Shown piece by piece: positions 1 to 1,556 of a stretch of DNA of 47,074 nt. The notes beneath the pieces were generated by a model, which saw nothing but the letters and a program-made list of their open reading frames with translations, was not told the DNA's origin and ran no database searches. Made by a program: the position numbers and the translations under genes. The number at the start of each line of letters is the position of its first letter. Positions within the stretch are counted from its first letter, which is position 1. This DNA is from Bacteroidota bacterium (lineage in GTDB: Bacteria; Bacteroidota; Bacteroidia; Palsa-965): NCBI GenBank assembly GCA_021299855.1, contig JAJTEY010000020.1, positions 1 to 47,074 of the forward strand, given 5' to 3'.

Positions 1-223
1 CAAATAACAATAAACAGGCAATGGTAATAGTAATGCCATCACCGATATCAGTAATATAAGGCATTAGGGAATCGAGCGCCGAACTGTTCCAAGAATTGAT
101 TTGTGTATGAGCCGAAATCCGTCCGACATTAGCCAACCATACAACACTTACAGCTACAAGAACAAGTTGTAGCACAATAAACAAACTTCCGGATTTAAAA
201 ACCGTTGCTAATGCGTTCCTCAC
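1..223 (-). CDS. PAP2-family membrane phosphatase, N-terminal part (truncated by window start)
   Basis: Reverse-strand reading from GTG at 223: VRNALATVFKSGSLFIVLQLVLVAVSVVWLANVGRISAHTQINSWNSSALDSLMPYITDIGDGITITIACLLLF. One TM helix followed by a motif resembling the N-terminus of Bacteroidota PAP2 proteins (NSWxSxxLDxxxxYITxxGDG). Open at the window edge. Confidence 0.6.
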   Translation of the reverse strand, partial: MRNALATVFKSGSLFIVLQLVLVAVSVVWLANVGRISAHTQINSWNSSALDSLMPYITDIGDGITITIACLLLF

Positions 224-248: not shown

Positions 249-1208
249 TTAATACGTGCCCATTGATTTCACCAAACGGTGAATCTGGGTGTCCCACAAA
301 CGGCGATTGGTTTCAATATCGTCTTCGCCGTCTCCGAAATCCGTAACAGTTAATGCCACTTCATTCGTCATTTCGTCCTGATCCAGACGGAACTCGAAAT
401 ACGTGTCTTTTGGCTTATCCAACCAACGCATACGGATATAACTATCCATCTTAGCATTCAGAATCTGCGCTTGTTGCGCCGCACCGTCCCATTTGAAAGT
501 ATAAATCTGAGTACGTGTATCCAGGTCAACTTCTTCAGCGAACCATTCTGCAAGTCCGTTTGGCGTTGTCAGAAAATCATAAATCAAAGAAATAGGTGAG
601 TGGATAATAAATTCCATCACGAATTTCCCTTTGGGTTCGGGCTTTCCGTTAAGTTCTTCGATGGGCTTATCCGTAATAACGTGATGCGTGATAACTTCAG
701 TTTTCACTAAACGTTTTTCGCCGGGCGCTAACTTTCCTTTTGGCTTTTTAATAGACAAATGGGAGGGAAGCTTTGGTAATTTGGATTTATCGATGGCCGG
801 AATTTCAGGCTGTACGATGCCTTTCACAGGTTTTTCTTTCTTTTTAGGTGCTGCAACAGGTGCTGCTTTTACTGCTTTCGGTTCAGCTTTAACTACAGGT
901 GCCGGAACAGTTTTTTTAGCTGCCGGTTGGGCTTTAGGAGTTGGTTTTGTCGCAACCACCTTCTTAGTTTGAACGGGCTTCGCTTTTGCCGGAGCAGCTT
1001 TTTTCTTCACCACCGGCCTCACTGCTTTTTTAGTAGCAGGCTTTGCAACAGGTTTACTCTTTGCAGGTTTACTCTTTGCAGGTTTCTTCGGCGCAGCTTT
1101 AGGCGTAGATTTTCCCTTAACTGCCTTTTTTACTGCAGTTTTGCCCGCCTTTGGTAAGGCTTTCTTCACATTACTTTTAACGCTCTTTTTCGCAACTTTC
1201 TTAGCCAT
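249..1208 (-). CDS. START-like/SRPBCC domain protein with long Lys/Ala/Pro-rich (histone H1-like) N-terminal tail
   Basis: ORF 249..1232; preferred start MAKKVAKKSVKSNVKK at 1208. C-terminal ~125 aa (KFVMEFIIHSPISLIYDFLTTPNGLAEWFAEEVD...RRLWDTQIHRLVKSMGTY) resembles the Bacteroidota START-like family. N-terminal ~170 aa is low-complexity K/A/P. Confidence 0.85.
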   Translation of the reverse strand: MAKKVAKKSVKSNVKKALPKAGKTAVKKAVKGKSTPKAAPKKPAKSKPAKSKPVAKPATKKAVRPVVKKKAAPAKAKPVQTKKVVATKPTPKAQPAAKKTVPAPVVKAEPKAVKAAPVAAPKKKEKPVKGIVQPEIPAIDKSKLPKLPSHLSIKKPKGKLAPGEKRLVKTEVITHHVITDKPIEELNGKPEPKGKFVMEFIIHSPISLIYDFLTTPNGLAEWFAEEVDLDTRTQIYTFKWDGAAQQAQILNAKMDSYIRMRWLDKPKDTYFEFRLDQDEMTNEVALTVTDFGDGEDDIETNRRLWDTQIHRLVKSMGTY

Positions 1209-1428
1209 TCTACTAAACTGTAGGGTGTACAATGAATTTTGGGGAAAAGTATAAAAAAAACTGAATATGACAAGTCGGGAAGTAAATTGTTTCCGAAGTA
1301 AAAATTACAAGCCCGATAGTACGGATAAATAAAATACTATATTTGCGTCCATTTTTAAGAAATCTGCCGATGAAATAAGCCCTGTAAATGCTCTTTCGGG
1401 AGTGTTTGAGGCACAAATTGCAGAAACG

Positions 1429-1474: not shown

Positions 1475-1548
1475 GGCGAGATAGCTCAGCTGGCTAGAGC
1501 GCAGCACTCATAATGCTGAGGTCCCGAGTTCGAGTCTCGGTCTCGCTA
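1475..1548 (+). tRNA. tRNA-Met (CAT anticodon; tRNA-Ile2 or fMet not excluded)
   Basis: Cloverleaf: acceptor GGCGAGA/TCTCGCT with a terminal G-U, D-arm GCTCAGCTGGCTAGAGC, anticodon stem CAGCA-CTCATAA-TGCTG, T-arm CCGAGTTCGAGTCTCGG. Discriminator A, no encoded CCA. Confidence 0.93.
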
Positions 1549-1556
1549 CGAAAGGA

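Follow-up and report, generated by a model that had tools for sequence, protein, structure and literature searches.

Anatomy of the START-like protein

The window analysed here, a stretch of 47,074 nucleotides from a Bacteroidota bacterium, carries near its beginning an open reading frame (positions 249-1208, minus strand, 319 aa) with its ATG at 1208 and its stop ending at 249, which encodes a START-like protein with a Lys-rich N-terminal extension. Three parts, all on the minus strand, can be distinguished: a low-complexity tail of K, A, P and V (aa 1-140, positions 789-1208), a conserved linker (aa 141-192, positions 633-788) reading LPKLP...KGKLAPGEKR..KTEVITHHVI, and a START_2 (PF19569) domain (aa 193-317, positions 258-632) identified by Pfam, PDB entry 2LIO, AlphaFold2 and Foldseek. 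Residues 1-192 consist of 28% K, 16% A and 15% P, carry a net charge of +45 and lack F, W, Y and C. The initial annotation had described a START-like domain and a Lys-rich, H1-like extension fused in one polypeptide, and this fusion is confirmed. Its two-part layout with about 170 low-complexity residues was too simple, as the tail ends at about residue 140 and is followed by the separate linker. The linker, the strong acidity of the domain and the envelope-lipid neighbourhood had all been overlooked.

Identity of the tail to seven relatives of the family (35-46%) is close to that of shuffled controls (30-39%), with composition kept. The linker is 58-75% identical to that of five orthologs of the same genus, in which the START domain reaches 63-72%; against two further genera of this family, the linker drops to 44% and 31% and the domain to 60% and 51%. 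Within the main tailed clade, portions of the linker also align to orthologs of other families. Family models gave no match to the tail in a profile search, Pfam gave no match to Hc1 (PF07432) in the 319-aa protein, and a search of the 72%-complete assembly with the tail as query matched no second Lys-tailed protein. The DNA of the tail contains a single short tandem repeat (15 bp x 2.5). As Lys-rich open frames precede the domain in many families, and given this single short repeat, the tail goes beyond what chance would produce.

The START_2 match scores 117.3 bits against a curated cut-off of 23.6 (E 5e-34, profile positions 4-125 of 126), and the protein is a single-copy Bacteroidia START_2 protein of the AHSA1-like helix-grip type. 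A sequence search against the PDB matched Bacteroides fragilis 2LIO to aa 193-317 (E 3e-18), while the match to AHSA1 (PF08327) in Pfam was marginal (23.6 bits, cut-off 22.1). In the AlphaFold2 model, which left out the tail itself, the domain consists of strands and a long C-terminal helix at a pLDDT of about 95, and parts of the linker reach 72-86. Foldseek retrieved 2LIO (E 2.5e-09), Aha1 (2M89, TMt 0.77) and Aha1-type folds, so that model and fold search together give a helix-grip START-type fold. The domain has a net charge of about -10; means are -9.5 for tailed and -11.6 for tail-less orthologs. START_2 domains are strongly acidic across the class, with or without a tail.

Translation start and upstream element

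A candidate promoter-like element, TATACTTTTC (positions 1244-1253, minus strand), lies 35 nt before the ATG; it is proposed from related elements in orthologs and is not a mapped promoter. Elements of the TATAnATTGC type precede the ATG by 17-54 nt (median 27 nt) in 25 of 38 tailed orthologs and by 23-53 nt (median 25.5 nt) in 10 of 42 tail-less ones, with 0.8 and 0.9 expected from shuffles of the respective sets; this excess is descriptive, since the pattern was written after inspecting these same upstream sequences. The tail could in principle be an annotation artefact, the true start lying near the domain so that the tail would not be made. GTG and TTG codons are present within the frame, and among 39 tailed orthologs, 8 contain a Met in the last 20 residues before the domain. 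Yet in this protein the first Met after the initiator is residue 198, the upstream element is about equally far from the ATG whether or not an ortholog is tailed, and long open Lys-rich frames recur in many families. Translation from inside the frame, which had been named as an observation that would speak against the fusion, is unlikely because the promoter-like element precedes the ATG of the tail and the next Met comes only at residue 198. An artefact is accordingly the most improbable of the explanations considered here.

Distribution of tailed and tail-less orthologs

Of 296 class genomes sampled, 252 have START_2, almost always in one copy. When 198 genomes were drawn from across the phylum, 49 had it, every one from the same class, and no match was obtained outside the class among these sampled genomes. 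The domain was unmatched in 44 of the 296 class genomes, including several families without a match in all sampled members. N-termini are bimodal, being mostly 0-13 residues long or else Lys-rich and about 50-380 residues long, with tails spanning 49-378 aa; a few tail-less N-termini read as 18-52 residues where the script took an upstream start. The tailed arrangement is real and widespread: besides the present genome, twelve further families of the sample have it.

The START tree has 88 rows, 31 of which, belonging to eight families (f1, f6, f7, f16, f19, f21, f40 and f43), group at 97/85. There are no tail-less rows within this main tailed clade, although a contig end truncates two of its members, L009 and L011, and for L009 leaves the linker only. 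The other tailed rows (f4, f9, f28, f29 and f70) lie elsewhere, with seven changes in all, and both states are found within f28 and f29. Resolution in this short tree is weak, and a single origin of all tails is not rejected (AU p 0.075). The expectation of the initial annotation that the tail is restricted to certain clades and that tail-less orthologs exist agrees with both the ortholog N-termini and the tree.

Charge and lysine spacing of the tails

Across 39 tails (L025 and L107 were excluded as doubtful starts), the K+R fraction is 0.32 +/- 0.04 and correlates weakly with locus GC (r -0.23) over a range of 0.31 to 0.68, whereas the K:R ratio tracks GC (r -0.67), with K and R about equal in the high-GC f9 tail. 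D+E amount to 0.06 and aromatics plus Cys to 0.01, and net charges reach +92. The near independence of K+R from GC, while K:R follows it, suggests selection on charge, and the pattern points to conservation of the charge of the tail rather than its sequence. Lysine spacing, for which L031 and L106 were also excluded, differs from shuffles, with KKx3KK enriched (z 8.3), K.K (z -13.5) and KKK (z -7.4) depleted, and an excess of lysines at lags 4 and 8; these z-scores are overstated because related tails were pooled. KPAA is weakly enriched (z 1.8; 7 copies across all tails tested).

Gene neighbourhood

A gene fragment (positions 2-223, minus strand; first 74 codons, cut by the contig end) follows the START gene by 25 bp on the same strand. 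It is a PAP2-superfamily phosphatase homolog by BLASTP (E 7e-11) against a gene from a relative in the same genus, itself PAP2 by Pfam; the 74-codon fragment had no Pfam match of its own. Of 45 loci, which include several genomes per family and five from f60, 21 have an LptF/G homolog and 18 a PAP2 homolog, both mostly downstream of the START gene on the same strand; GT-C (ArnT/PMT-like) proteins are encoded in 10 and a PEMT-like methyltransferase in 6. These counts represent linkage, not function. A hand tally by family associates the tail with PAP2 adjacency (Fisher p 0.007); no association is claimed, as the families are related and independent pairs on the tree are too few.

A separate gene for the tail, the other observation named in advance as contradicting the fusion, is not adjacent in the loci read. 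In three f60 genomes (L126, L127 and L128) a stand-alone Hc1 gene of 61-63 aa lies upstream of the START gene on the same strand, and was considered as one half of a split fusion; this was rejected, as that Hc1 has no K/A/P tail. Hc1 occurs in 93 of 296 class genomes, and the idea that its presence excludes tails was dropped because it is scattered and also occurs in f6, f16 and a single f1 genome. Polyphosphate kinase was likewise discarded as a discriminator, being present in 244 of the 296.

Elsewhere in the window, at 1430-1510, reading by eye shows two copies of ggctagagcgcag beside a gctctagctctagc stretch, one shortly before a tRNA-Met gene (1475-1549, plus strand) and the other within it. 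This repeat looks like a partial tRNA duplication.

Possible roles of the tail

Both parts of the protein are known, and their arrangement is unusual; no paper on the tail-START_2 architecture and no functional study of START_2 were found in the open-access literature searched. Beyond the observed anatomy, distribution, conserved charge, promoter-like element and gene neighbourhood, we infer polyanion binding, the identity of the polyanion, the ligand and any benefit. Tentatively, we favour the view that electrostatic attraction tethers an acidic START-type protein to a polyanion, which would most likely be nucleic acid, in the manner of PhaF or AlgP, to which the protein is unrelated. The START_2 protein is probably cytoplasmic, as no N-terminal signal or hydrophobic segment is visible, and its gene is grouped with those of inner-membrane lipid proteins (the LptF/G LPS-export permease, the PAP2 lipid phosphatase and an ArnT-like transferase). 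The Lys-rich, presumably disordered tail on the acidic domain would bind the polyanion without sequence specificity, with nucleic acid (nucleoid or RNA) the likeliest target, and may thereby concentrate or tether the START domain there, a service that the Lys-rich tails of PhaF and AlgP perform for other folded domains. The held charge, non-random lysine spacing, fully tailed main clade, acidic domain and lipid-gene neighbours are all consistent with this. Against it, DNA is not the only partner open to K/A/P tails, which can also bind RNA, polyphosphate and acidic lipids or proteins; tail-less orthologs manage without a tail, and the tail could fold back onto the acidic domain.

Alternatively, the tail could bind the anionic inner-membrane face and hold the START domain beside LptF/G or PAP2 proteins, with acidic phospholipid, lipid A or undecaprenyl phosphates as candidate ligands and nucleic acid not the target. 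The envelope-lipid neighbours and a fold akin to lipid- and ligand-binding START/AHSA1 proteins (Foldseek) would suit such a role; however, the tail is nearly without aromatic anchoring residues and LptF/G also adjoins tail-less orthologs, which leaves membrane binding rather unlikely. Perhaps the tail instead masks the acidic domain until a polyanion displaces it, or holds acidic partners. The opposite charges of domain and tails and the conserved, partly well-modelled linker between them would fit an arm of this kind, but tail-less domains are at least as acidic as tailed ones and the AlphaFold2 model lacks the tail, and we regard it as unlikely. That the tail is near-neutral low-complexity sequence without a function of its own seems quite unlikely: its near-shuffled identity among relatives and variable length point that way, yet charge is held over the whole GC range, lysine spacing is non-random and the main clade has no tail-less row. 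Very unlikely is a further possibility, in which a START protein found throughout the class, and linked through gene order with LPS export and lipid phosphatases, repeatedly gained an H1-like tail tying it to the nucleoid, and envelope-lipid state would be sensed at, or coupled to, the chromosome.

If the polyanion tether holds true, another class of folded domain would join the PhaF/AlgP theme of bacterial H1-like tethers. Most of the Bacteroidia genomes sampled carry START_2 in one copy, and for this protein, otherwise a blank, the recurring Lys tail, conserved linker and envelope-lipid neighbourhood provide concrete entry points.

A protein of known structure, B. fragilis BfR322 (2LIO), belongs to the same START_2 family by sequence and predicted fold; with 136 residues and a match from residue 3 it has no Lys-rich tail, unlike the present protein. 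In AlgP of Pseudomonas aeruginosa, a disordered extension rich in K, P and A has been compared to histone H1; AlgP fragments bind DNA, and the protein acts in polyphosphate-granule spacing (PMC9239181). AlgP combines a helical N-terminal domain with a C-terminal KPAA-repeat tail (PMC9239181), whereas the present protein has its tail at the N-terminus and START_2 as its folded part, and tails of this kind seldom contain KPAA; the protein thus lacks a C-terminal KPAA-type repeat domain of the AlgP/PhaF type. The phasin PhaF of Pseudomonas putida joins a cargo-binding part to a disordered Lys-repeat part that binds DNA, with tail repeats of 4-5 aa (PMC3574117). The lysine excess at lags 4 and 8 is in line with these repeats and with the KPAA repeats of AlgP. 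PhaF differs in its fold, in the opposite order of its parts and in its PHA-granule cargo, and the likeness is one of analogy, not homology. Hc1 is likewise called H1-like, and in f60 it is a separate, unfused protein. Within Bacteroidota, a charged disordered region of Bacteroides thetaiotaomicron Rho drives RNA-dependent condensates; that region is KE-rich (PMC13269538), in contrast to the K/A/P tail carried by the START domain here.
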